DNA from: Amphibacillus jilinensis Y1
GTDB taxonomy: Bacteria > Bacillota > Bacilli > Bacillales > Amphibacillaceae
Assembly (NCBI RefSeq): GCF_000306965.1
Contig: NZ_JH976434.1
Coordinates: 474,102-538,101 of the forward strand
DNA: 64,000 bases
Reading direction: 5' to 3'
Each line of letters opens with the position of its first letter. The stretch's first letter is position 1. The position numbers were made by a program, and so were the translations under genes. The notes beneath the pieces are model-generated. The model was not told the origin of the DNA, did no database searches, and saw only the letters and a program-made list of their open reading frames with translations. Of this stretch, positions 6,470 through 35,862 are shown one piece after another.

Positions 6470-7578
6470 AGCGCAACGACCTCCAAATGTTGATTCACTG
6501 TAGGTGCTTGAATGAGAGCGCCAGAATCACGATTGAAAAAGCTAAAATGTTTAATCGATAATGACAAAGGTACACGTTCGCCAACTCGTATTAACCATTG
6601 ACCAAGCCATTTAGCTGTCCACAATTCCCTTCCTACTTCAAATGTTAGTAGGGTTTCATTTCCTAAATGTTCAATATTTATTACTTCTAGCCACAGATCT
6701 GCTTCTTCTGGCTTTGCATAACTAAGGTGTTCTGGTCTAATCCCTACAATTAAATTCCCTCGCTGCATCACCTGTGGAATATCACTCATGTTCAATGAAA
6801 GTTGAAGGGTCTGTTCAATCATGAGTTGCTGGTCGCCAATCATTGCTTCTCCAAAATTCATCTTTGGCGAGCCAATGAATGACGCAACAAATAGATTAGC
6901 AGGCTGATTGTAGAGTTCAATTGGCTCTCCAATTTGTTGGATAGTCCCATCATTCATTACCATAATCCGATCGCCCATCGTCATCGCCTCAACTTGATCA
7001 TGCGTCACATATATCATAGTCAGTCCTAATTTTTTCTGAAGCCTACGAATTTCAACACGCATATGTGCTCTTAATTTGGCGTCTAAGTTAGACAGAGGCT
7101 CATCCATCAGACATAACGGCGCTTGACTAACGACAGACCTTGCCAGCGCTACCCGCTGTCGTTGACCGCCTGATAATTGCTTCGGTTTACGATCAAGCAA
7201 ATCGGTTAACCCCATCATCTCCACTGTCTCATAGAGCCTCCGTTCTTGTTCAGCTTTTTTCACCTTTTTAGCATGAAGACCGAAAAGAATATTTTGCTTA
7301 ACAGTCAAATGAGGATATAGGGCATAGTTTTGAAAAACCATTGATAAGTGGCGATCCTTCGGAGGCAAATGATTAACAATGTTACCATTGAGCCTCAATT
7401 CCCCACCTGTAATACTCTCCAGTCCAGCAATCATTCGTAACAAAGTGCTTTTCCCAGATCCTGATGGGCCAACCAAAACAAAAAATTCACCTTCTTCAAT
7501 GGTTAAATCAATATGTTCCAGTACACTAGTTGTTTTGTCATAAAATTTAGACACAGCTGTCAATTCAACTGGATGCAT
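6466..7578 (-). CDS. ugpC: ABC transporter ATP-binding protein, MalK/UgpC/MsmX type
   Basis: Energises sugar or glycerol-phosphate import. Walker A GPSGSGKST, Q-loop FQNYALYPH, signature LSGGQRQR, Walker B LCLMDEP, then a C-terminal TOBE/regulatory domain with GIRPEHL; about 370 residues as expected. The ATG at 7578 is chosen over one 42 bases upstream because AGGAGG lies nine bases before it. First gene of the ugp-like operon. It is the only carbohydrate-type ATPase in the window, whereas two other CUT1-like importers (31.0-34.6 kb and 58.5-61.7 kb) lack one. Members of this family such as MsmX serve several importers, so it could be shared. Confidence 0.92.
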   Translation of the reverse strand: MHPVELTAVSKFYDKTTSVLEHIDLTIEEGEFFVLVGPSGSGKSTLLRMIAGLESITGGELRLNGNIVNHLPPKDRHLSMVFQNYALYPHLTVKQNILFGLHAKKVKKAEQERRLYETVEMMGLTDLLDRKPKQLSGGQRQRVALARSVVSQAPLCLMDEPLSNLDAKLRAHMRVEIRRLQKKLGLTMIYVTHDQVEAMTMGDRIMVMNDGTIQQIGEPIELYNQPANLFVASFIGSPKMNFGEAMIGDQQLMIEQTLQLSLNMSDIPQVMQRGNLIVGIRPEHLSYAKPEEADLWLEVINIEHLGNETLLTFEVGRELWTAKWLGQWLIRVGERVPLSLSIKHFSFFNRDSGALIQAPTVNQHLEVVAL

Positions 7579-24924: not shown

Positions 24925-26373
24925 TTATTTGTGTAATTTATTGACCTCATTGGCTACGGATTCAACTTGTGTTCCTACAACAACTTGAATATTATGATCA
25001 TCAATGACATTAATACCGGGAATGCCCGTATTCTTTATCCGTTGTTGATCAACTACTGACGTGTCTTTCACTTCAAGGCGAAGACGCGTTACACAGTTAT
25101 CAATTGAAATCAGATTACTTTCTCCACCTAAACCTTGATAAATCTCTTGAGCCATTTGCGCATACTTATCATCTCCAGCGCTTTTAGTATCGGGTGACGC
25201 ATCCTCATCCCAATCCTCGTCGCCACGACCAGGCGTTTTTAGATTGAATTTCGTAATTAATACACGGAATATTACATAATAAATAACCGCAAATACTAAA
25301 CCTTGTACAATAAGCATATATGGATTGTTTGCTAAAGGCAATTGAGAACTTAAAAAAAAGTCAATAAATCCAGCACTAAAACCAAAACCGGCTGTCCAAT
25401 TAAACAATGCTGCTACCATGAGTGAAATACCACTTAACAGCGCATGAACGAAATATAGTAGCGGTGCTACAAACATAAATGAGAATTCAATCGGTTCTGT
25501 TACACCAGTTAGAAAAGCTGCAAATCCAGCCGCTAACAATAGAGCTGCAACTTGTTTCTTCTTCGTCTCTTTAGCCGTGTGGTACATGGCTAAACAAGCT
25601 GCTGGTAAACCAAACATCATGACAGGAAAGTAGCCGGCTTGATACATGCCTGTCACACCTAATTCACCTTGACCAGACCAAAAGTTACCAATGTCATTAA
25701 TTCCAACCATATCAAACCAGAATACCTGATTTAGCGCATGGTGGAGACCTGTCGGAATTAATAATCGATTAAAAAAGCCGTATAACCCTGCCCCAAACAC
25801 ACCTAGTTCGCTAAAAAATGTACCAAAACTCACCAATCCTTCATAGACAGCTGGCCAAATAAAAAACATAATAGCTGAAACAAATAGCATAGATAAAGCT
25901 GTCATGATCGGAACCGAGCGCTTACCACTAAAGAATGCAAGTGCATCAGGAAGCTTAGTTTTGCTAAAGCGATTATACATACTTGCCGCCACCAAGCCAG
26001 AAATCATCCCAATAAAGGCATTCTCAATACTTGCAAAGGCAGGTGAAACAGCATCAACTTCAATCCCTCTAAGCAATGATACAGAACTTGGAGAGAGTAA
26101 AGATGTAATCACAAGCCAGCCAACTAACCCACTTAATCCGGCTGAGCCATCTTTTTCTTTTGCCATTCCTAAAGCAACTCCGATAGCAAATAAAACCGCA
26201 ATATTGCCTAATATCGCATCACCTGCGGTTATTAAAAACGCAGCAACCACATTTTCTTCGCCCCATCCAGAATGATCCATTGAATAACCAATCCCTAAAA
26301 GTATGGCTGCTGCGGGCAAGACGGACACTGGCAACATTAGTGAGCGTCCAAGCCGTTGTAAATAACTTTTCAT
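24925..26373 (-). CDS. nagE: PTS N-acetylglucosamine-type transporter, fused IIC-IIB
   Basis: About 482 residues. IIC domain (1-375): glucose/GlcNAc permease features FNRLLIPTGLHHALN, and GVTEPIEFSFMFVAP containing the conserved Glu. IIB domain (about 400-482): phosphorylated Cys in IDNCVTRLRLEV. No IIA domain, so it needs a separate IIA of the glucose class, which is not in the window. The start at 26373 has GGGGG nine bases upstream; an ATG 15 bases upstream is possible. GlcNAc specificity is inferred from overall resemblance and from the NagR-like operator at its promoter. Confidence 0.85.
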   Translation of the reverse strand: MKSYLQRLGRSLMLPVSVLPAAAILLGIGYSMDHSGWGEENVVAAFLITAGDAILGNIAVLFAIGVALGMAKEKDGSAGLSGLVGWLVITSLLSPSSVSLLRGIEVDAVSPAFASIENAFIGMISGLVAASMYNRFSKTKLPDALAFFSGKRSVPIMTALSMLFVSAIMFFIWPAVYEGLVSFGTFFSELGVFGAGLYGFFNRLLIPTGLHHALNQVFWFDMVGINDIGNFWSGQGELGVTGMYQAGYFPVMMFGLPAACLAMYHTAKETKKKQVAALLLAAGFAAFLTGVTEPIEFSFMFVAPLLYFVHALLSGISLMVAALFNWTAGFGFSAGFIDFFLSSQLPLANNPYMLIVQGLVFAVIYYVIFRVLITKFNLKTPGRGDEDWDEDASPDTKSAGDDKYAQMAQEIYQGLGGESNLISIDNCVTRLRLEVKDTSVVDQQRIKNTGIPGINVIDDHNIQVVVGTQVESVANEVNKLHK

Positions 26374-26408
26374 TATAAAAACCCCCATCCCTAATTAAAC
26401 ACATAGAT

Positions 26409-26534: not shown

Positions 26535-26573
26535 AGAACTCTGACCCCATTCAAGTATAGGGATCAGAGCTCT
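26535..26573 (-). terminator. Terminator of the fructan operon
   Basis: Stem of about 13 bp (minus strand GAGCTCTGATCCC pairing with GGGGTCAGAGTTC, with wobble), followed by TATTTTTG. Lies 31 bases after the GH91 stop codon. Confidence 0.8.
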
Positions 26574-26603
26574 TTTAAAACAACTACACCTGATCCTCTA
26601 CGA

Positions 26604-27839
26604 CTAAGGGAGCGGTATATTTACATTGCTTTCTTCACCATCATTCTGAAACTCATTTTGATGGATACTGTCAGTCACAAGTGTACGACGCGATGGCTGC
26701 CGGACGATAATTTTCGATTCTGATAAATGAGCTACACCAATCGAATTGTTTGAGATGCGATTATTTTCTCCAGATTCTATAGTAATAGCGGCATAACCCT
26801 CTGGCAGAGCATCTGTATTGATTTGATTACCTTGTATAAACGTATTAGAGGCTACGATGTGTAGAAGTCCCCAATCTATACCTTTTTCTTCTGGGTGTGG
26901 CCGGAAGCTACTAACAGAGATCGTATTCCCACTTATTAAATTACCATAACCGGCTGCGCCTTCCTCATTTATCAATAACTCAATGATTCCTGTATAACGT
27001 GATGAAATCGTATTACTTGAAATCGTTCCGTATGTCGGATTATACAGCCGTATGTTACTTGCACCATCCGGATATATGTTGTTACCATTAATGGTAAACC
27101 ACTGTGGATTTTCCATTTCAATAGTTACGCCACTCGGTTGTGCACCTAAGGCGTTGTTAACAATACTTGCTTGTTGAGAAGCTCCATTTAAGAGGATCGA
27201 TGTATGGGTTTCTGCAATCCAAGAATTTCGTATCGATGGTGCATCTGCCCCATGCAGTTGTACACCAGTACCAACATGATTGATAACTAAATCATCTATT
27301 ACAACACGATCTGTATCTTGCACAGCCTGAATTCCTATACCATTATTTTCCTCACCGCGAATTTGGAAACTTCTGAAAGTGATTCCTGAAATACGTTGAC
27401 TACTTTCCTCATCTAAAATTTGAATAGCCGTTACTCCAGACTGAACAATCAACTTTGCTCCACCACCACCAGGTTGTGTCTTAGGATTGGAACCATCTAC
27501 ACCACTTCGCAAGCCACTATTATCGCCAACAATTGAAACATATGAGCGATCAATTTCTATTGGTGAATTAATATAAAAGTTACCGACAGGAATATAAATA
27601 GTACCTCCATTTTCACCCATATCGTTAATAATTTCGTTAAATACCTCCGCGTTATCAAAGCTCGGCTGATTAGGTTGCGCACCATAATCTAAAATATTGT
27701 AATAGCCTGCATTTTTCTCTAACCCTAAAATAGACAGCTTACTTTCAGAAAAAATCGGCAAGCTTACTGTAGCTATACCTACAACTAGACCTATTAACAA
27801 TAACAGGACGATACTTAATATCACAACGATTCTCTTCAC
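26604..27839 (-). CDS. GH91 family inulin fructotransferase-like protein, membrane-anchored
   Basis: 411 residues. An N-terminal transmembrane anchor (about 4-28, IVVILSIVLLLLIGLVVGIA) without a lipobox places the rest outside the cell. The remainder is a right-handed parallel beta helix following the pattern I recall of inulin fructotransferases: GGTIYIPVGNFYI, SYVSIVGDNSG, SGITFRSFQIRG, HGADAPSIRNSWIAE. The catalytic Asp and Glu reported for the Bacillus enzyme (D233, E244, from memory) have equivalents at D199 and E210, with the same spacing of 11. Expected reaction: cleavage of inulin to difructose anhydride, though some GH91 members hydrolyse the anhydride instead. GTG start at 27839 with AGGAGG six bases upstream. 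Last gene of the fructan operon. Confidence 0.8.
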   Translation of the reverse strand: MKRIVVILSIVLLLLIGLVVGIATVSLPIFSESKLSILGLEKNAGYYNILDYGAQPNQPSFDNAEVFNEIINDMGENGGTIYIPVGNFYINSPIEIDRSYVSIVGDNSGLRSGVDGSNPKTQPGGGGAKLIVQSGVTAIQILDEESSQRISGITFRSFQIRGEENNGIGIQAVQDTDRVVIDDLVINHVGTGVQLHGADAPSIRNSWIAETHTSILLNGASQQASIVNNALGAQPSGVTIEMENPQWFTINGNNIYPDGASNIRLYNPTYGTISSNTISSRYTGIIELLINEEGAAGYGNLISGNTISVSSFRPHPEEKGIDWGLLHIVASNTFIQGNQINTDALPEGYAAITIESGENNRISNNSIGVAHLSESKIIVRQPSRRTLVTDSIHQNEFQNDGEESNVNIPLP

Positions 27840-27989
27840 CTTATTCCTCCTCGCACAATATGTTTGCGCTTCCATTTCTACCTATTAATTTTTAGTCCCT
27901 TTCCTTTGAATGCCAACTTAATAATGCCATTATCTTTCACTGCTGGCGGATGCTTTCCGTTGGCGTGGATTGAGCTAAATCAGCATCAT

Positions 27990-28598
27990 TTAAAGGCGCT
28001 GATCACTTAGTAAATGACTTGATCCAATCCACATTATAACTAAAGCCATTGAACTCACACCTATTAGAAGAAACAATGAAAGAAATCTCAGATAAACAAT
28101 GATGAAAATTAATAAAATCAGTACTAAAGCTAGGGTGTGGAGTGGTCTTGATACCGCATAAATAAGTGCAAACTTCGGATACTGCCAAGTACGGTATTTA
28201 TAATGGACGAAGAGCGGAAAGACCGCACTCAAACTCAGCAAAATAACAAACAAGACGAAGATAAGTACACCACTCCCCAGCTGAACCCAAACCGACGAGG
28301 GGAGCGTGTGAAGTATTCGATAATAAAAATACAAACTGCTAAAACTTACACTGTAGATAAAACCAAGAAGATTAGCAGATAGAAATTCTTTTTTATAATT
28401 CTGCCAAAATATGCGCGGAAGTTTTTGATCATCTTTATTAATCACTATCTGCTTTAAGGCAGCAAATAACGCAACGATACTCGGGAAAAGCCCAAAGATA
28501 CCGATACCTATTAACAATCCAACCCAAAAAAGCATATTTAAGAGAAGGAGATGAAAACCTAGTGTACCTATCCGCATAAACCATGAATTTTGATACAT
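27990..28598 (-). CDS. DUF624/YesL family membrane protein
   Basis: 202 residues with five hydrophobic segments. YesL-type proteins are almost always next to CUT1 ABC importers and glycosidases, as here, but their role is not known. N terminus FMRIGTLGFHLLLLNMLFWVG and the loop GLFPSIVALFAALKQ are typical. GGAGGAG lies before the ATG. Between fructokinase and the GH91 gene. The 150 bases after it hold a decayed piece of the GC-rich Bacillaceae repeat (GCGGATGCTTTCCG, near 27945). Confidence 0.85.
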   Translation of the reverse strand: MYQNSWFMRIGTLGFHLLLLNMLFWVGLLIGIGIFGLFPSIVALFAALKQIVINKDDQKLPRIFWQNYKKEFLSANLLGFIYSVSFSSLYFYYRILHTLPSSVWVQLGSGVLIFVLFVILLSLSAVFPLFVHYKYRTWQYPKFALIYAVSRPLHTLALVLILLIFIIVYLRFLSLFLLIGVSSMALVIMWIGSSHLLSDQRL

Positions 28599-28615
28599 TT
28601 CTCCTCCCCCATTTC

Positions 28616-29578
28616 TTATTTGAGTAAATATTGGTTCACGTCATCGTATGTCGGGATACTATCTATCCCTCCCAATTTCGTGCAAACAAGTGCAGCAACA
28701 ACATTACTAAACATCACATAATCCACTAACAGCTCTTCATCCATCAACACATCAGAATATTTGGATTCTTTTGCAAGTCGACTCAGTAAAGCACCAATAA
28801 ACGCATCTCCAGCACCTGTAGAATCTATCGATTTAATATTTATACTTTTTACTATTCGATTAAAGCTTTGTGTAGATACATAGGTTCCTTTTGCACCAAG
28901 CGTAACCATAACGACCTCAACACCTAACTGGTGTATCACATCTACACCTCGGCTCAAATCTGATTGATTCGTAATTAAGGCTAATTCATCTTCACTTACC
29001 TTAACCAAGTTTGCCTTTTTACAGCACTGTGTTACCCATGTAATGAAAGCAGCTGTCTTACCTTGCCAGAGATCACCCCTATAATTGGGATCAAATGATA
29101 CAAATTTATTTCGGTTGTGCCCATGCTCCATTAACGCAAGATACGTTTTTCGAAATGGATCAGATAATAAAGCAGTGGCTGAACCAAAGTGTAATATATT
29201 GATTTCCTCTAATTGATCCTCAGCGATATCATCAAGGGTGTAATATTGGTCGGCACCTCTAGCAAAAGTAAAATCGCGTTCTCCTGTTGCGTCTAATGAC
29301 ACAAAGGCAAAAGTGGTGTGATGATCGGGATCTTTTTTGAGCATCTTAGTATGCACACCTTGTTCATGAAGCGTCGCTTCTAAAAAATGGCCAAATGCAT
29401 CATCACCTACTTTACCGCCAAAATATGCTTCCCCACCAAAAGCAGAAACGACTGAACAAACATTCGCCGGCGCGCCACCTGCCCGCTTAATAAAGTGGTT
29501 CCCTTCCATTAATTTTACATCTACATCTTGACAAAAAAAGTCGATTAGTAACTCACCAATGCAGGCTACTTTACTCAT
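28616..29578 (-). CDS. scrK: Fructokinase, PfkB family
   Basis: 320 residues. Ribokinase-fold sugar kinase: N-terminal GELLIDF, FIKRAGGAPANVC substrate motif, and the C-terminal anion hole and base DSTGAGDAFIGALL (Asp about 254). Phosphorylates fructose to fructose 6-phosphate for glycolysis. Coupled in the operon to the GH32 fructosidase, 24 bases upstream, which releases fructose. GGATGAGAG precedes the ATG. Confidence 0.9.
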   Translation of the reverse strand: MSKVACIGELLIDFFCQDVDVKLMEGNHFIKRAGGAPANVCSVVSAFGGEAYFGGKVGDDAFGHFLEATLHEQGVHTKMLKKDPDHHTTFAFVSLDATGERDFTFARGADQYYTLDDIAEDQLEEINILHFGSATALLSDPFRKTYLALMEHGHNRNKFVSFDPNYRGDLWQGKTAAFITWVTQCCKKANLVKVSEDELALITNQSDLSRGVDVIHQLGVEVVMVTLGAKGTYVSTQSFNRIVKSINIKSIDSTGAGDAFIGALLSRLAKESKYSDVLMDEELLVDYVMFSNVVAALVCTKLGGIDSIPTYDDVNQYLLK

Positions 29579-29601
29579 TCTCTCATCCTTTCCATCAAGG
29601 C

Positions 29602-31065
29602 TTATGCTTCATCACCTATTTTGATTCGACTACATTTACCTTCAATTAATTTTGCTTCTGAACTATCACTTGTAATGATGAGCTTATCAAATGCAGCATG
29701 CGGGTAAACCAAACTTGTCAATGCATATCTCCCATCATCATTAAAGATTTCTATAGAAGAATGATCGATAACCATCTGTAAGCGATCGTGTTTATTTGTT
29801 GCAACAGGTAATACTTGTTTAGCCGAAAACAACTCTGAAAACTCAACAATCCCTATACGACTACGATCTAATACGATAGCTTTTTTTAAATAGTCCAACT
29901 TTACAATAAGCTCCTCATCACGATCTGTTTGAAAGATAAAGTCTATTTCTTTGGCCCCTGCGGGATCGACGAGCACCTCGACCATGAATGGTACTCCTTC
30001 TAATGAAACTTGCAAATTATTTATTAGTTGATTTGGCTTGAACGGTATCGACTCATACATGTATTGCATGATTTCTTCAACTAGCACTTGTTTTAAAAGC
30101 ATTCCTTCGTTTGTTTCAATCAGTGATAGTTTACGAGGAAGTGTCATTTGTCCACGCCACTCCCCCGTGGGCACGTGATTCGCATAACGCCAATTACTCA
30201 TCCACCCCATATAAATACGTCGACCATCTACTTGAGGTATATCTGAGAAACTCACTCCGGCATAATTATCTTTTCCGTAATCTAACCACCTTACAAGGTC
30301 ATCTTGAGGTGTGAAAATTTCCCCATCAAAATCTCCAATAAAGTATTGCGTCTTTGAACCTTCTTGTTTATCAGGATTGTCTCCTACACTAACTAACATA
30401 ACCCATTTCGTTTTATTTGTACCTTCAATCTGGAGTTCAAACAAGTCGGGACATTCCCAAACAGCCTCTTGATAGCCCTTCCCTTCCCCAAATTCACTTT
30501 TAAATTGCCAATCAACCAAATTCCGGGATGTATAAATCATCACCGTTTGACCAGTCGCAAGAATCATGACCCAACGCTTAATCTTCTCATACCAAAAAAC
30601 TTTTGGATCTCGAAAATCGACTTTATCTGGGTGCTTTAATACCGGATTACCTGAATAGCTCACCCAACTTTTACCTTCATCTTTACTGTAAGCTAAGCTT
30701 TGATATTGTTTTGGTGGTCCGGAAGATTGCTCTAGGTGATGGGTAAAGATAGCTACCATACCAGGCTGATCGCCAAAGAAGCCTGATGTATTATTCCAAT
30801 CGATGACAATACTTCCCGAAAAAATCATACCTAATTCATCTGGGAAGAGCGCAATAGCCTGCTCTTCCCAGTGGATCATATCCTTACTAATCGCATGCCC
30901 CCAGTGCATTGGTCCCCATACACTAGCATTTGGATTATGTTGAAAAAACAAATGATACATGCCATTGAAAAAAACCATCCCATTTGGGTCATTCATCCAA
31001 TTTTTTTTTGGAGCAAAATGTATTTTGGGTCTAAATTGATTATTTGTCTGTAGCAAGCTAACCAT
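29602..31065 (-). CDS. Intracellular GH32 fructosidase (sucrose/fructan/levanase type)
   Basis: 487 residues without signal peptide. Five-bladed propeller with the three GH32 catalytic signatures: NWMNDPNG (nucleophile Asp26), FRDPKVFW (Asp153 transition-state stabiliser), ECPD (acid/base Glu204). The C-terminal beta-sandwich is present. Acts on imported fructo-oligosaccharides, sucrose or difructose anhydride; which one cannot be told. The ATG at 31065 abuts AGAGAGG, so a TTG nine bases later (31056) may be the true start. Followed by fructokinase. Confidence 0.9.
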   Translation of the reverse strand: MVSLLQTNNQFRPKIHFAPKKNWMNDPNGMVFFNGMYHLFFQHNPNASVWGPMHWGHAISKDMIHWEEQAIALFPDELGMIFSGSIVIDWNNTSGFFGDQPGMVAIFTHHLEQSSGPPKQYQSLAYSKDEGKSWVSYSGNPVLKHPDKVDFRDPKVFWYEKIKRWVMILATGQTVMIYTSRNLVDWQFKSEFGEGKGYQEAVWECPDLFELQIEGTNKTKWVMLVSVGDNPDKQEGSKTQYFIGDFDGEIFTPQDDLVRWLDYGKDNYAGVSFSDIPQVDGRRIYMGWMSNWRYANHVPTGEWRGQMTLPRKLSLIETNEGMLLKQVLVEEIMQYMYESIPFKPNQLINNLQVSLEGVPFMVEVLVDPAGAKEIDFIFQTDRDEELIVKLDYLKKAIVLDRSRIGIVEFSELFSAKQVLPVATNKHDRLQMVIDHSSIEIFNDDGRYALTSLVYPHAAFDKLIITSDSSEAKLIEGKCSRIKIGDEA

Positions 31066-31070
31066 CCTCT

Positions 31071-32663
31071 CTATTCATGTGAACGATCGTAACCGTCTTG
31101 TTTAATTTGCAACCATTCTTGGACACCAAGACGGTCTAATTCTTGTAAATACTCATCCCACTCTGCATCCGCATTCCCATTCGTGATCCATTCTGCCTTC
31201 TTCCGGTGAATATATGGGATTAAATCGGCTTCTATTGTTGATAATCGATCCAATTCATCATTATCAAAGAAAACATTTGGAAAAATATTATCTGCTTGCA
31301 TATAAGGAACCATTACTTCATCCATCAAATTAAGTCTCCATGCGGCATCATCAGGCATCGTTGTCACATCACCGTAGTATTTATCCAAGATAGCTAATGG
31401 TCCTCCTACAGATGTTTTTTCCCTTAACTCAACAGGTGCTGCCCCATCAAGTGGCAGATGCCTTAACATCTCATGTTCTTCATCATATTCAAAAATATTC
31501 TGCAATTCATCATCACCATATGTTCCCCAATTATTCTGAACAGATTGTAACGGGTCGTAGAGCTGGTCAATCCATTTTGCAGTTAGTTCTAAATTCTCAT
31601 TAGCACTCGTAATAACCATCCGCGAACGATCAAAGCCCATTCCATTTGTACGTGGTACATTAATCTGTCCATCAGGACCTTCAAGTGGATTCATTAAATC
31701 ATAATCATCGCCCATACCGGTAATGTTTCCTTTGTCCCACGTGAAGTATAGTCCATACCTCCCTTCTTGACCTTTTGCAACATATGTCGGCCAGTCATGT
31801 TCGAATGCTTCTATATCTATAAGTTGCTCATCATACAATTCATTCATGAAATGAATTGCATCTTTATAACCTTCTTGCATTGATGTAAGTAATACCTCAT
31901 GATTATTTGTAACGACTGTATGGTCCCAATTATCACCATAGCCAAATGCGCCGAATAGGAATCCTGGATCTTGACCACCGTCATTAATGATGAATGACAT
32001 CGGAATGGTTTGACCATCTCCTGCTGGATCATTATCTCTAAAGGCAATCAAAACTTCTTTTAATTCTTCAGTTGTCTGTGGCATATCTAGACCAAGTTCT
32101 TCAAGCCAATCTACATTAATCCATGGAAAGTTATCAACTGAATGTATACTGCCTCTGCCTTCTCCTAATTCTTCGATCCAAGGAAAAGCATAAATATTAC
32201 CGTCAGGTGCTGTCATCATTGCCTTATATTCTGGCGAGTGTTCAAGTATTGCTTGTAAATTTGGCATATGTTGATCAATCAAATCATTTAGCGGAATAAT
32301 AGCTCCGTCATTTGCATAATTTAATAATTCATAATCACTAAATGCTGCATTTTTAATGGCATCTGGCATTTCACCTGTAGCGAGAGCTAGGTTGCGGCGT
32401 TCATCAAATGTTTCACCAGTAAAGTTCAACCAGTCAATATGGACACCTGTCTCTTCCTCTAAACGTTGATAAATTAACTTCTCATTTGGATCATCTGGTG
32501 CCATTGGGGAGCTTGATGTCATGAATTTAAGGGTAACTGTTTCCTCTAAGGGGAAACTTATATTTTCGAGACCATAATCTTCAGAATGTGAAACTTCTTC
32601 CCCACCACACGCGGTTAACAGTAAAGCAACGATAACCATGAGTAAACTGAAATATTTTTTCAT
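31071..32663 (-). CDS. Extracellular solute-binding lipoprotein, LplA/YtcQ type
   Basis: About 530 residues, the large type used by LplABC-like polysaccharide-fragment importers. Lipobox LTAC (Cys19 of this start). It contains TLKFMTSSSPMAPDDPNEK and DWLNFTGETFDERRNLALATG, usual in the family. It binds the product of the extracellular fructan enzyme. The ATG at 32663 is preferred: AAGGAG lies eight bases before it, whereas the GTG at 32672 overlaps that site. Followed six bases later by the GH32 gene. Confidence 0.88.
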   Translation of the reverse strand: MKKYFSLLMVIVALLLTACGGEEVSHSEDYGLENISFPLEETVTLKFMTSSSPMAPDDPNEKLIYQRLEEETGVHIDWLNFTGETFDERRNLALATGEMPDAIKNAAFSDYELLNYANDGAIIPLNDLIDQHMPNLQAILEHSPEYKAMMTAPDGNIYAFPWIEELGEGRGSIHSVDNFPWINVDWLEELGLDMPQTTEELKEVLIAFRDNDPAGDGQTIPMSFIINDGGQDPGFLFGAFGYGDNWDHTVVTNNHEVLLTSMQEGYKDAIHFMNELYDEQLIDIEAFEHDWPTYVAKGQEGRYGLYFTWDKGNITGMGDDYDLMNPLEGPDGQINVPRTNGMGFDRSRMVITSANENLELTAKWIDQLYDPLQSVQNNWGTYGDDELQNIFEYDEEHEMLRHLPLDGAAPVELREKTSVGGPLAILDKYYGDVTTMPDDAAWRLNLMDEVMVPYMQADNIFPNVFFDNDELDRLSTIEADLIPYIHRKKAEWITNGNADAEWDEYLQELDRLGVQEWLQIKQDGYDRSHE

Positions 32664-32681
32664 TTTTGACACTCCTTTTTC

Positions 32682-33575
32682 TTATTTTAATGAGCCAACC
32701 ATAACCCCTTTTTCAAAGTACTTTTGAAAAAATGGATACATAACCATAAGCGGTAAGCTTGCTACCACAATGGATGAATATTTAATCATCTCTGCTGCAC
32801 GTTGCATTTCAGCACGTGCCAGCTGATCCGCAATCATACCTGGAGGCACTTCATTTTGCACCAGGATTTCACGTAATACGAGCTGCAGAGGATATAATGA
32901 ACGATCGTTCAAGTAAATCATCGCATCAAAATAAGCATTCCACTGCCCAATAAAAGCAAAGAGAGCGATTACAAAAATGATCGGCTTTGAAAGTGGTAAA
33001 ATAATGCTTAAAAATATCCGTAAATCTGATGCACCATCTATTTCTGCTGCTTCTTTCAGTTCCTTTGGTACCCCTTTAAAAAAAGTACGTGTTAAAATAA
33101 TGTTCCAAACCCCTACTGCCCCTGGTAAAATAATTGCCCAAGGTGTATTGATTAGACCTAAACTCCTCACAACGAGATAGGTAGGAATCATTCCACCATT
33201 AAAAAACATCGCAAACAGAAAGAATACGGTAATGATTTTCCCACCTACTAGCGTTTCAACAGATAAAGCATAGCCTGCTAGCACAGTGAATGAAACAGCG
33301 ATAAACGTGAAGCCAGATGCATATAGGACAGAGTTTAAAAAACCTCTTACAATCGAACCATCTTCAAAGATACGTCGATAACCGTCAAGCGTCCAATGGT
33401 CAGGGTTAAATGAGATCCCCTGATTCAGTAAAATGTTTGGCTTTAAGAAAGACCCTACAACGACATAAGCAATTGGGATTGTAACCGCTAATACAATCAA
33501 AACAAGTAGAATCTTATTAAGAAATAATATCATCCGATCAAAGCGTGAATTATTGATAAGCGTTTGCTTAGACAT
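32682..33575 (-). CDS. ABC permease, YtcP/LplC type
   Basis: 297 residues, six hydrophobic segments, EAA loop KEAAEIDGASDLRIFLSIILP, and the C terminus EKGVMVGSLKG-like (here ends MVGSLK). Pairs with the permease encoded just upstream. No ATPase gene in this operon. Confidence 0.9.
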   Translation of the reverse strand: MSKQTLINNSRFDRMILFLNKILLVLIVLAVTIPIAYVVVGSFLKPNILLNQGISFNPDHWTLDGYRRIFEDGSIVRGFLNSVLYASGFTFIAVSFTVLAGYALSVETLVGGKIITVFFLFAMFFNGGMIPTYLVVRSLGLINTPWAIILPGAVGVWNIILTRTFFKGVPKELKEAAEIDGASDLRIFLSIILPLSKPIIFVIALFAFIGQWNAYFDAMIYLNDRSLYPLQLVLREILVQNEVPPGMIADQLARAEMQRAAEMIKYSSIVVASLPLMVMYPFFQKYFEKGVMVGSLK

Positions 33576-33592
33576 GGCGTTACTTCCTTTCT

Positions 33593-34567
33593 TTAATAAA
33601 GCGTTTCACCATTGAGTTTTTTAATAACTCCATTAGCAATGACTAAAAGAATTAACCCAATGACCGTATTAAACAAGCCCACTGCCGCACCAAATGACCA
33701 GTCTCCAGATAATAAACCACGTTTATAAACATACGTATCAATAATTTCAGAGGCCGGAATGTTCATATCTGTTTGCAATAAATAGGCTTTTTCAAAACCT
33801 ACCCCCATAATGCCGCCGACCGCTAATATGAAGAGAACTGCCATAACTGGCTTGAGAACTTGGACGTCAATATGCCAAATACGTTGTAAAAGCGAAGCAC
33901 CATCAATGGTCGCCGCATCATGTAGTTGTGGATCTGCATTCGATAAGGCAGCTACATACACAATTGATGAAAACCCTGCTCCTTGCCAAATTCCAGAAAG
34001 AATGAATATGGTTCTAAAGTAGTCTGGATTAGACATAAATGCGATTGAATCACCTGTAGTTTGAGTAATCAACGCATTAATCGGTCCCGCTGGTGATAAG
34101 AAAATAAAAATCATTCCCGCAATAACGACCGTCGAGATAAAGTGTGGCGCATAAACAATCAATTGAATATTTTTCTTGATTTTTGCTCGTCTAACTTGAT
34201 TTAACATAAGTGCAAGTAGAACTGGGACAGGAAACCCAATAACTAAGCCATATACACTCAATTTTATGGTGTTTGAGAAGATTTGAAAAAAATTGGGTGA
34301 TGTGAGAAAGCTTCTAAAGTGTGACAAACCTACCCACTCACTTCCAAAGATGCCACGTGTGACACTAAAATCTTGAAAAGCAATTAGAACACCATACATT
34401 GGAATGTAGTTAAAGATAAAAACGAGTGTAACAGCTGGTAGCAAGAAAAGGTAAAGAATGTAATTTTTCTTCATGTATGCCCATTTTGATTCTTTTTTTG
34501 ATTTGTGATCGTATTTAATATCTTTCATTAGACCTTTATTGATCACATCTTCTGGTTGCTTCATCAT
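33593..34567 (-). CDS. ABC permease, LplB/YteP type
   Basis: 324 residues. About 35 cytoplasmic residues, then six hydrophobic segments; FNYIPMYGVLIAFQDF is the family N-terminal signature. The EAA loop reads DAATIDGASLLQRIWHIDVQVL. First gene of the fructan operon. AAGGAG lies before paired ATG codons at 34567 and 34564. Confidence 0.9.
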   Translation of the reverse strand: MMKQPEDVINKGLMKDIKYDHKSKKESKWAYMKKNYILYLFLLPAVTLVFIFNYIPMYGVLIAFQDFSVTRGIFGSEWVGLSHFRSFLTSPNFFQIFSNTIKLSVYGLVIGFPVPVLLALMLNQVRRAKIKKNIQLIVYAPHFISTVVIAGMIFIFLSPAGPINALITQTTGDSIAFMSNPDYFRTIFILSGIWQGAGFSSIVYVAALSNADPQLHDAATIDGASLLQRIWHIDVQVLKPVMAVLFILAVGGIMGVGFEKAYLLQTDMNIPASEIIDTYVYKRGLLSGDWSFGAAVGLFNTVIGLILLVIANGVIKKLNGETLY

Positions 34568-34594
34568 TTCAACTCCTTTTAGTCAAGTAAAAAA

Positions 34595-34617
34595 AGTATC
34601 CGCTTACAATTGTAAGC
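34595..34617 (-). promoter_or_regulatory. cre-like site and overlapping palindrome in the fructan leader
   Basis: Minus strand TGTAAGCGGATACT (34608-34595) differs from the CcpA cre consensus TGNAARCGNWWWCA only at the last base. It overlaps a perfect 16-bp palindrome GCTTACAATTGTAAGC (34602-34617). It lies downstream of the predicted transcription start, suggesting roadblock-type catabolite repression. Confidence 0.5.
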
Positions 34618-34621
34618 ATTT

Positions 34622-34645
34622 ATTATGTCAACCGGTTGACATAAT
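34622..34645. promoter_or_regulatory. Second LacI operator of the fructan operon
   Basis: A 24-bp perfect palindrome with core TGTCAACCGGTTGACA, identical in core to the operator at 34685-34718. The centres are 68 bp apart. It lies downstream of the predicted start of transcription. Confidence 0.8.
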
Positions 34646-34670
34646 GGTTAAAAATTGATTGCGCACGTTT

Positions 34671-34718
34671 ATTATAAGTGATGAAAATAAATATGTCAAC
34701 CGGTTGACATATTTATTT
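34671..34718 (-). promoter_or_regulatory. Sigma-A promoter and main LacI operator of the fructan operon
   Basis: Minus strand TTGACA (34699-34694), 17 bases, TATAAT (34676-34671): consensus in both boxes. The -35 lies inside a 34-bp perfect palindrome (34685-34718), core TGTCAACCGGTTGACA, so a bound repressor would block RNA polymerase. Confidence 0.85.
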
Positions 34719-34737
34719 AAAAAAAGCCGACAACCAT

Positions 34738-34890
34738 CAAATAAACCTTTAATCAGCGGGGGGTTTCACTCTTCTCCCACTGATTGATAGTTGCGTCAAT
34801 CAGGACATTACCGTCCGTTATTGCCGACCTCATATAGATGAGCTTTACTCTTTATTTGGCAGTACTTTTTACGAATAGTTATCCGTGATA
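34738..34890 (+). repeat. Full-length family 1 repeat
   Basis: AATAAACCTTTAATCAGCGG at the left, CTTCTCCCACTGATTG closing the first hairpin, TCAGGACATTACCGTCCGTTA, and TTTTTACGAATAGTTATCC with GTGATA at the right. Lies directly downstream of the LacI gene. The interval 34568-34899 otherwise holds only the operators and promoter. Confidence 0.7.
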
Positions 34891-34899
34891 CCGATTTCT

Positions 34900-35862
34900 T
34901 TACGTTGTTTTTCCTTGAATTAACTGAACAGGTAATGTGATATTGTCAACTGTAGGCTCTTCCACTTCGTTAATTTGATTCATTAAAAGATGCACTGCTT
35001 CCTCAGCCATGTCTTTAATAGGCTGTTTTATTGTTGTCAGCTCTGGTAACAACATGCGTGTCATATCTGCACCATCATAACCAATGACTTTCAGGTCTTC
35101 TGGTACATTCATGCCTCTCTTATTTGCTTCTCTAATCACACAAGCAGCAATTAAATCATCACTGGCAAAAACACCATCAATCTTTGGATTTTCATCAAAC
35201 ATTCGTGAAATGTAATCATCTACTGTTTCATAAGTTTTGTAGGGCATCTTTTTCCGTTTCATCGTTTCTTCATACGCATTTCGCCTTAAATTAGCCGGGG
35301 TTTCTAATGAAAGTTGGCCATTAATATGGAGAATATGCTTACAGCCACGATCAATAAGATGTTCCGTTGCCATCACACCACCGCGATAGTTATCACTTGA
35401 TACGATTGGAATGTGGCCAGCTAAATAACGGTCAACACCCACGATCGGCATTGTCGAACGCTGGTAAATATCAATCCCCCTATTATGTGCCCCAGCAATG
35501 ATGCCATCAACTTGATGGCGTTGTAGCATCTCCAGATAAGCACGTTCCTTATCCTCCCGTCCTCCACTATTACATAAAAGAACCTTATATCCCAATGCTT
35601 CACAAAAGTTTTCAAGGTGATAAATAAGTTGACCATAGAAGGGATTATTAGTCGTTGGGAAAATGACCCCCACAATGTATGTCTTTCTAATAAATAAAGA
35701 TCGTGCAATTTCATTCGGGTAATAATTCAATTCTTTCATTGCAACGTGAACTTTCTCCCTTGTTTTATCACCAATGTAACCCCGATTATTTAAAACGCGA
35801 GACACAGTGGTCAGTGATACACCTGCCCGTTTAGCGACATCTGCTAGCTTTGGTTTATCCAT
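34900..35862 (-). CDS. LacI family repressor of the fructan operon
   Basis: 320 residues. N-terminal helix-turn-helix KLADVAKRAGVSLTTVSRVLNN (5-26), hinge NEIARSL, then a periplasmic-binding-fold sensor domain. Located just upstream of the ABC-GH32-GH91 operon on the same strand. The two TGTCAACCGGTTGACA palindromes at that promoter have the central CpG typical of LacI sites and are the obvious targets. Probably induced by a fructo-oligosaccharide or related compound. A weak promoter TTGAGC-17-TAAATA lies within the adjacent repeat (about 35905-35935). Confidence 0.9.
   Translation of the reverse strand: MDKPKLADVAKRAGVSLTTVSRVLNNRGYIGDKTREKVHVAMKELNYYPNEIARSLFIRKTYIVGVIFPTTNNPFYGQLIYHLENFCEALGYKVLLCNSGGREDKERAYLEMLQRHQVDGIIAGAHNRGIDIYQRSTMPIVGVDRYLAGHIPIVSSDNYRGGVMATEHLIDRGCKHILHINGQLSLETPANLRRNAYEETMKRKKMPYKTYETVDDYISRMFDENPKIDGVFASDDLIAACVIREANKRGMNVPEDLKVIGYDGADMTRMLLPELTTIKQPIKDMAEEAVHLLMNQINEVEEPTVDNITLPVQLIQGKTT

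Follow-up and report, generated by a model that had tools for sequence, protein, structure and literature searches.

Is the protein encoded by the last gene of a putative fructan operon in Amphibacillus jilinensis Y1 a member of GH91, the family of inulin fructotransferases and difructose anhydride III hydrolases (DFA-IIIases), and what would such a protein do outside the cell? The gene lies on a 64,000-nucleotide stretch of contig NZ_JH976434.1 (positions 474,102 to 538,101), referred to below as the window. The initial annotation had proposed that inulin is turned into difructose anhydride (DFA) outside the cell by a tethered GH91 fructotransferase and that the anhydride is then imported and opened inside. 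Three activities are named within GH91 in PMC8605356 (papers are cited here by PMC number). We find that the window protein is a real, divergent and well-placed GH91-family protein. Our best explanation, which we consider probable, is that LacI governs a fructo-oligosaccharide operon that includes a Fus-type importer, and that its last gene encodes a surface enzyme of a divergent GH91 clade that trims inulin-type fructan.

Comparison of the window protein with PDB sequences by phmmer returned eight sequences at E <= 10, the top six of which were GH91 entries with E values of 3.6e-24 to 1.2e-19. A putative phage pectin lyase ranked seventh, with an E value of 0.014, and the gap between it and the six GH91 entries indicates a kinship above chance. 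Profile alignment with hhalign, a check of the hidden Markov model type, gave a probability of 99.8 and an E value of 1.7e-30 against eight canonical GH91 proteins (with no control family), yet the Pfam model PF18835 stays below its cut-off, a point weighed further on. We also built a structure model of the protein as a monomer, on a 3-row alignment, with a mean predicted local distance difference test score (pLDDT) of 66.3. When this predicted model was searched with Foldseek, the top 23 of 351 matches (50 best shown) were all GH91 chains (5.0e-9 to 9.3e-7), and the first match outside the family followed at 6.1e-5. With VIA-align, the top 12 entries were GH91 (Z 31.2-32.2) and the next entry had a Z of 26.6. 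The protein is accordingly modelled, or predicted, as a right-handed parallel beta-helix with GH91 structures as its nearest neighbours and, by analogy with the family, is probably trimeric, in which case its active site would lie at the interface of the subunits. Thus the inulin fructotransferase pattern described in the initial annotation is borne out, GH91 coming first by sequence and, on the predicted model, by fold, if with loose superposition, and no other beta-helix family gave a better match. The generic Pfam models NosD, Beta_helix and Pect-lyase score above their cut-offs in the window protein. Assignment as a pectate lyase, a GH28 enzyme, NosD or a plain tail spike was rejected because canonical GH91 proteins match the generic models too and because GH91 leads both kinds of search. 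A search of PHROGs gave one weak match to a family of unknown function (5.2e-4).

The two catalytic acids named in the initial annotation, D199 and E210, are present with a spacing of 11. In phmmer and MAFFT alignments they fall on D233 and E244, the catalytic pair of 2inu, a Bacillus inulin fructotransferase, and in hhalign on the corresponding Asp and Glu of the eight canonical GH91 proteins. Mutants of D207 and E218 of the A. aurescens DFA-IIIase are inactive according to PMC4640833. For 2inu, that paper lists eleven active-site residues besides the catalytic pair and describes them as highly conserved among DFA-IIIases and inulin fructotransferases. Across the 16 rows of a MAFFT alignment, the 2inu positions R174, D233, E244 and Q256 are retained throughout (16/16); the window protein also keeps P291 and F346, has Tyr at F290, and has at S133 a Val in this alignment and a Ser in that of phmmer. 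In 8hsn, a DFA-I former whose row is partial and possibly misaligned, just three of the eleven (I134, R174 and Q256) are retained, and three others are gaps. Since 8hsn departs at most of these positions, we did not take the set as family-defining; the contact positions changed in the window protein would then be determinants of substrate or product and not family markers. The lid insertion of DFA-IIIases (with Cys387 in A. chlorophenolicus) is absent from the alignment rows of the whole window clade described below, and the DFA-IIIase type was rejected for the window protein because it lacks this lid.

The open reading frame (ORF) begins with a GTG at 27839, preceded by AGGAGG, and its stop codon ends at 26604 on the minus strand; an alternative ATG upstream at 27875 would give 423 residues. 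The membrane tether noted initially is seen as an N-terminal membrane segment at residues 4-22, the single strongly hydrophobic stretch of the protein (mean Kyte-Doolittle value 3.4). The protein contains no Cys and therefore no lipobox, and the two features together indicate a protein that is anchored or secreted and is not a lipoprotein, so the enzyme presumably sits at the cell surface. The gene is under purifying selection: the ratio of nonsynonymous to synonymous substitution rates (dN/dS) between A. jilinensis and Amphibacillus cookii is 0.124, similar to the 0.141 of the GH32 gene of the operon, and the range for the eight other genes compared is 0.043-0.152.

Like the inulin fructotransferases that form DFA-III (2inu, 9j4i) or DFA-I (8hsn), the window protein has a beta-helix (here predicted), the residues corresponding to R174, D233, E244 and Q256, and no lid, and activity outside the cell is expected for all of them. 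It differs in its membrane segment, its Fus-type importer operon and its changed contacts, and in MAFFT alignments its identity is 26.1% to 2inu, 25.5% to 9j4i and 31.3% to the partial 8hsn. The DFA-IIIases (5zks, 28.7% identical; Blautia, Arthrobacter) resemble it in fold, catalytic pair and a neighbourhood of GH32 and ATP-binding cassette (ABC) importer genes, but the lid and its Cys are theirs, whereas the window protein has the N-terminal membrane segment and is accompanied by a separate DFA-IIIase in its own genome.

In a midpoint-rooted tree of 21 rows, which has long branches and open forks, the window protein, its A. cookii counterpart and two phage proteins formed one group (100/100 support), separate from the remaining 17 rows; the tree does not give the canonical GH91 subgroup that this clade joins. 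By sequence, then, the window protein is on a deep GH91 branch whose only other members, in the samples searched, come from A. cookii and from the tail fibres of two phages. The GH91 tree of PMC11538131 includes uncharacterised proteins of Bacteroides ovatus with 20-27% identity to a DFA-IIIase, and outlying members are thus accepted there. Searches of 41, 397, 398 and 398 genomes, at E limits of 1e-3, 1e-10, 1e-8 and 1e-12, matched 6, 6, 1 and 2 genomes, respectively; these samples overlap, and each includes the A. jilinensis genome. Window-type copies were found only in A. jilinensis itself and, in the 41-genome search, in A. cookii. Three matches of that search were weak (9.0e-6 to 6.7e-4), and the five other matches of the 397-genome search and one of the 398-genome search at 1e-12 fall with DFA-IIIases in the tree. 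A search of genome contigs gave 7 relatives among 88 stretches, with A. cookii alone of the window type and the other six being short N-terminal matches. Viral contigs gave no match to the single window protein and the same one contig each time with two alignments, and GenBank phages gave no match. The rarity of the clade is based on these overlapping samples and on pattern scans. We found no literature on Amphibacillus and inulin, judged by title.

The closest relatives found so far are phage tail-fibre domains. A tblastn search of plasmids returned 85 records, the best of which was a 128,846-base Limosilactobacillus reuteri record, NZ_CP102426.1 (50.3%), and the other listed records showed 26-30% identity. 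The best match spans 370 query residues at 50% identity, retains the catalytic pair, and is the C-terminal domain of a 1459-residue protein with tail-fibre, collagen-like and GDSL esterase parts. This record also carries genes for a tail tape measure protein, a holin, a LysM protein, a primase and other phage functions, and we therefore term it a phage-plasmid. The second relative, an 842-residue ORF on contig IMGVR_UViG_2937151071_000001 of IMG/VR, matches over 378 query residues at 49% identity and likewise retains the pair. Nine stretches of its locus, one of them the tail-fibre front, were compared with PHROGs; eight matched, among others to tail, endolysin, primase, polymerase and ligase families, and the nearest plasmid records of the contig are from L. 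reuteri. These domains thus resemble the window protein in catalytic pair and sequence (49-50% identity) but stand at the end of fusion proteins, after tail-fibre and collagen-like parts, and are encoded among phage genes. The phage GH91-like domain has a weak tail-spike match in PHROGs (1.3e-5), and the tail fibre of NZ_CP102426.1 gave no PF18835 match up to E 0.1. In our locus extracts, these two GH91-like C-terminal domains follow collagen-like parts of tail fibres at L017:6749-11128 and L021:8612-11140, with a GDSL esterase in L017; on the related plasmid LN906635.1 of L. reuteri ATCC 53608, an annotated transposase gene (L037:8975-10105) lies between endolysin and primase, the place of the tail-fibre gene in L017 and L021. 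L. reuteri strains produce inulin or levan exopolysaccharide. We tentatively suggest, as a possibility somewhat short of probable, that the clade comprises fructan-cleaving GH91 beta-helices used by both phage and bacterium, as a tail-fibre tip and as an Amphibacillus surface fructanase, and exchanged between them; the tip of the Limosilactobacillus phage-plasmid tail fibre would then cut or bind host fructan exopolysaccharide as a receptor. Where inulin fructotransferase stands alongside phage proteins in passages of PMC5314372 and PMC3718772, the context is structural comparison, and we found no GH91 depolymerase on phages in the literature, by title or passages, with part of the matching papers unchecked.

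The genes around the window gene (Table 1) were read initially as an importer, a cytoplasmic GH32 and a fructokinase. They are all on the minus strand and form a fructan operon of which the GH91-like gene is the proposed last member, in the order LacI regulator, two permeases, binding lipoprotein, GH32, PfkB kinase, DUF624 protein and GH91-like protein, which is identical in A. cookii. From the first permease through DUF624 the genes are 5-23 bp apart, whereas LacI is followed by a gap of 332 bp and the GH91-like gene is preceded by one of 150 bp. The importer had been called LplA-type; an importer it is, but more precisely one of FusA type (2.6e-201 to 5g5y). Structure 5g5y is FusA, a fructo-oligosaccharide binder, and 5g60 is its nystose complex (PMC5287374). 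Judged by sequence, the window importer is of this fructo-oligosaccharide type and is predicted to bind linear fructo-oligosaccharides. Pneumococcal Fus import likewise combines a FusA-type binding protein with two permeases, whereas the GH91-like surface protein and DUF624 belong to the window operon. We take the pneumococcal layout to include a GH32 gene and a LacI gene in the neighbourhood, as here. The A. jilinensis genome has two GH32 genes, the second in what reads, from its ORFs, as a sucrose phosphotransferase system (PTS) operon. A PTS IIBC gene at 24925-26388, on the same strand just downstream of the window operon, scores above the cut-off of TIGR01998, a model for N-acetylglucosamine, and is apparently unrelated. 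TOBE_2 has four matches in the genome, one of them in the window at about 6535-6747, which is a candidate multi-sugar ATPase for the importer.

Table 1 Features of the fructan operon of A. jilinensis Y1, in window coordinates.
Feature	Position	Strand	Evidence or remark
GH91-like beta-helix protein, membrane-anchored or secreted, 411 aa	26604..27839	-	last gene of proposed operon; catalytic pair D199 + E210
Hydrophobic segment, residues 4-22; signal anchor or signal peptide, without lipobox	27774..27830	-	
DUF624 membrane protein	27990..28598	-	PF04854 1.5e-17
PfkB-type kinase, most likely fructokinase	28616..29578	-	PF00294 5.8e-62; best NCBIfam NF006957 (fructokinase) 218.5 bits, below cut-off 450
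GH32 beta-fructosidase, cytoplasmic	29602..31065	-	PF00251 6.1e-98; best solved match exo-inulinase 8i12, 1.2e-111; N-terminus without hydrophobic stretch
FusA-type fructo-oligosaccharide binding lipoprotein	31071..32672	-	5g5y and identical chains 2.6e-201; 5g62 1.2e-201
ABC permease	32682..33575	-	PF00528
ABC permease	33593..34567	-	PF00528
Palindromic operator candidate TGTCAACCGGTTGACA, copy 2	34626..34641	.	downstream of -10
Promoter TTGACA-17-TATAAT	34671..34699	-	12/12 match
Palindromic operator candidate TGTCAACCGGTTGACA, copy 1	34694..34709	.	overlaps -35
LacI-family regulator	34900..35862	-	PF00356 1.4e-21; Peripla_BP_3 1.3e-29

Promoter-like matches as a class are at chance level in the window (31 versus 35.1 expected). 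The two TGTCAACCGGTTGACA palindromes are identical, 16 bp long, and start 68 bp apart, on either side of a perfect sigma-70 promoter; the A. cookii pair is 66 bp apart, and one of its copies has a mismatch. At <=3 mismatches these two sites are the only ones in the window, with 0.16 expected and two sites in 2 of 100 shuffles. At <=2 mismatches they are the only ones in the whole genome, and A. cookii has only two, at the same promoter. The backward control pattern occurs once per strand in A. jilinensis and twice in A. cookii; the argument is therefore the location of the palindromes and not their number. The LacI regulator would bind both copies. A perfect inverted repeat, GCTTACAATTGTAAGC, at 34602 was rejected as an operator because its A. 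cookii copy has 3 mismatches; with a T-run, this repeat (34601-34618, in the operon leader) is terminator-like on the minus strand. In the window terminator scan (8 sites versus 6.6 expected), no minus-strand site falls in the 150 bp gap before the GH91-like gene and one lies behind the gene at 26490-26469, and the gene is presumably co-transcribed with the operon across this gap.

The initial annotation saw no dedicated anhydride hydrolase, and this part of its interpretation is not supported as it stands: a canonical DFA-IIIase of 447 residues, with lid and Cys, is encoded outside the window at 29183-30523 of a contig labelled C10 and scores 718.8 bits against the A. chlorophenolicus enzyme 5zks. 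It adjoins ORFs that read as a LacI regulator, a binding protein and two permeases (L009:9181-15387), that is, its own importer genes, and from the start of the protein it would be cytoplasmic. The other elements of that interpretation, the predicted GH91-type fold, the catalytic pair, the membrane segment and the fructan operon, hold, and the pathway idea as such is plausible. A three-stage DFA route is described in PMC8605356, and the gene for its cytoplasmic step is thus present in A. jilinensis. On plasmids of Arthrobacter and Agrobacterium, two GH91 genes lie near each other and are accompanied by GH32 and genes for an ABC importer (L036:2751-9395 and L020:6592-9251, one from annotation and one from ORF reading); these loci fit the three-stage route and serve as comparators for a complete one. 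Another genome of the same order has, by ORF reading, the DFA-IIIase locus set plus GH32 and a kinase, like the Blautia DFA-IIIase clusters of PMC11538131, some of which also hold a kinase.

In the explanation that we favor, LacI would control the operon, and the GH91-like surface enzyme would use D199 and E210, in the inverting chemistry of GH91, to remove terminal difructose units of inulin-type fructan outside the cell. The remaining short oligosaccharides, and inulobiose if it is released, would enter through the Fus importer, after which GH32 would cleave them and the PfkB kinase would phosphorylate the fructose; if the released unit were DFA-III, the C10 locus would import and open it. 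We infer that fructan is the substrate. Several observations weigh against this explanation. Identity to the four solved GH91 proteins is 25.5-31.3%, compared with 45-51% among those four, across activity classes. PF18835 (Beta_helix_2, the inulin fructotransferase repeat) reaches 14.3 bits against a cut-off of 30, a cut-off also missed by 5 of 6 other scanned GH91 proteins (20.2-28.7 bits; one above, at 38.3). The structure model is of moderate confidence, given its pLDDT and few rows, and even on GH91 its Foldseek superposition is loose (template modelling score 0.49-0.60 by query length, root-mean-square deviation 11.8-13.6). By MAFFT, the 2inu contacts I134, R292 and Q313 are replaced by Asp, Asp and Ser, Y197 by Glu at a shortened loop, and F315 by Arg (Tyr in the phage rows). 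The 150 bp gap holds a promoter-like match (27916-27888, 9/12, chance-level score), so the GH91-like gene could have its own promoter. Finally, three results described next, on A. cookii, GH172 and the palindromes, also count against it.

Two sub-cases differ in the unit released. The window protein could be a true DFA-forming inulin fructotransferase, with the cell living on DFA that is imported and opened by the DFA-IIIase, a prospect that we rate as not quite even. The catalytic pair and fold and the DFA-IIIase with its own importer genes favor it, as does the missing lid, since a lidless DFA-IIIase reportedly becomes an inulin fructotransferase (PMC11538131). However, the contact positions differ from those of DFA-III formers, and the operon carries a FusA-type importer, a type known for fructo-oligosaccharides (PMC5287374). 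A. cookii has the operon but no DFA-IIIase in its genome, and the alternative opener GH172 was rejected because neither Amphibacillus genome gave a match, whereas 3 of the 9 searched genomes did (an earlier search of the A. jilinensis genome had been run without a positive control). With no known opener in A. cookii, an obligatory DFA route does not follow. Nor was TGTCAACCGGTTGACA found at the C10 locus at <=3 mismatches, and a regulon common to both loci, tested by this palindrome search, was not found. Alternatively, linear inulobiose or longer fructo-oligosaccharides may be released hydrolytically, taken up by the Fus importer and split by GH32, with no anhydride step needed. Here the operon alone suffices, which fits A. 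cookii, the changed contacts could alter the acceptor, and from GF3, GF4 and inulin a GH91 DFA-IIIase sets free not only DFA-III but also inulobiose (PMC11538131); but that paper links hydrolysis to the lid, a part missing from the window protein, and no residue proves water as the acceptor, so this sub-case is possible but rather doubtful.

A different reading dispenses with fructan cleavage: the protein could be a fructan-binding or structural beta-helix, or act on another glycan, and have been exchanged with a phage tail fibre. Its closest relatives are indeed tail-fibre domains, and tail spikes and adhesins have the same fold. This is nevertheless unlikely in view of the four active-site residues retained in 16/16 rows, the lead of GH91 over tail spikes in sequence and fold searches, and the fructan operon context.

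The window protein represents a deep GH91 branch in which the catalytic core is kept and the substrate contacts are changed, and it is thereby a natural test of product choice among DFA-III, DFA-I and linear inulobiose. More surprising is the link to phages: the tail-fibre relatives suggest a clade that spans uses in feeding and in infection. Should the tail-fibre copies prove active, they would constitute GH91 depolymerases on phages and offer an easy means of probing fructan exopolysaccharide as a receptor for phages.

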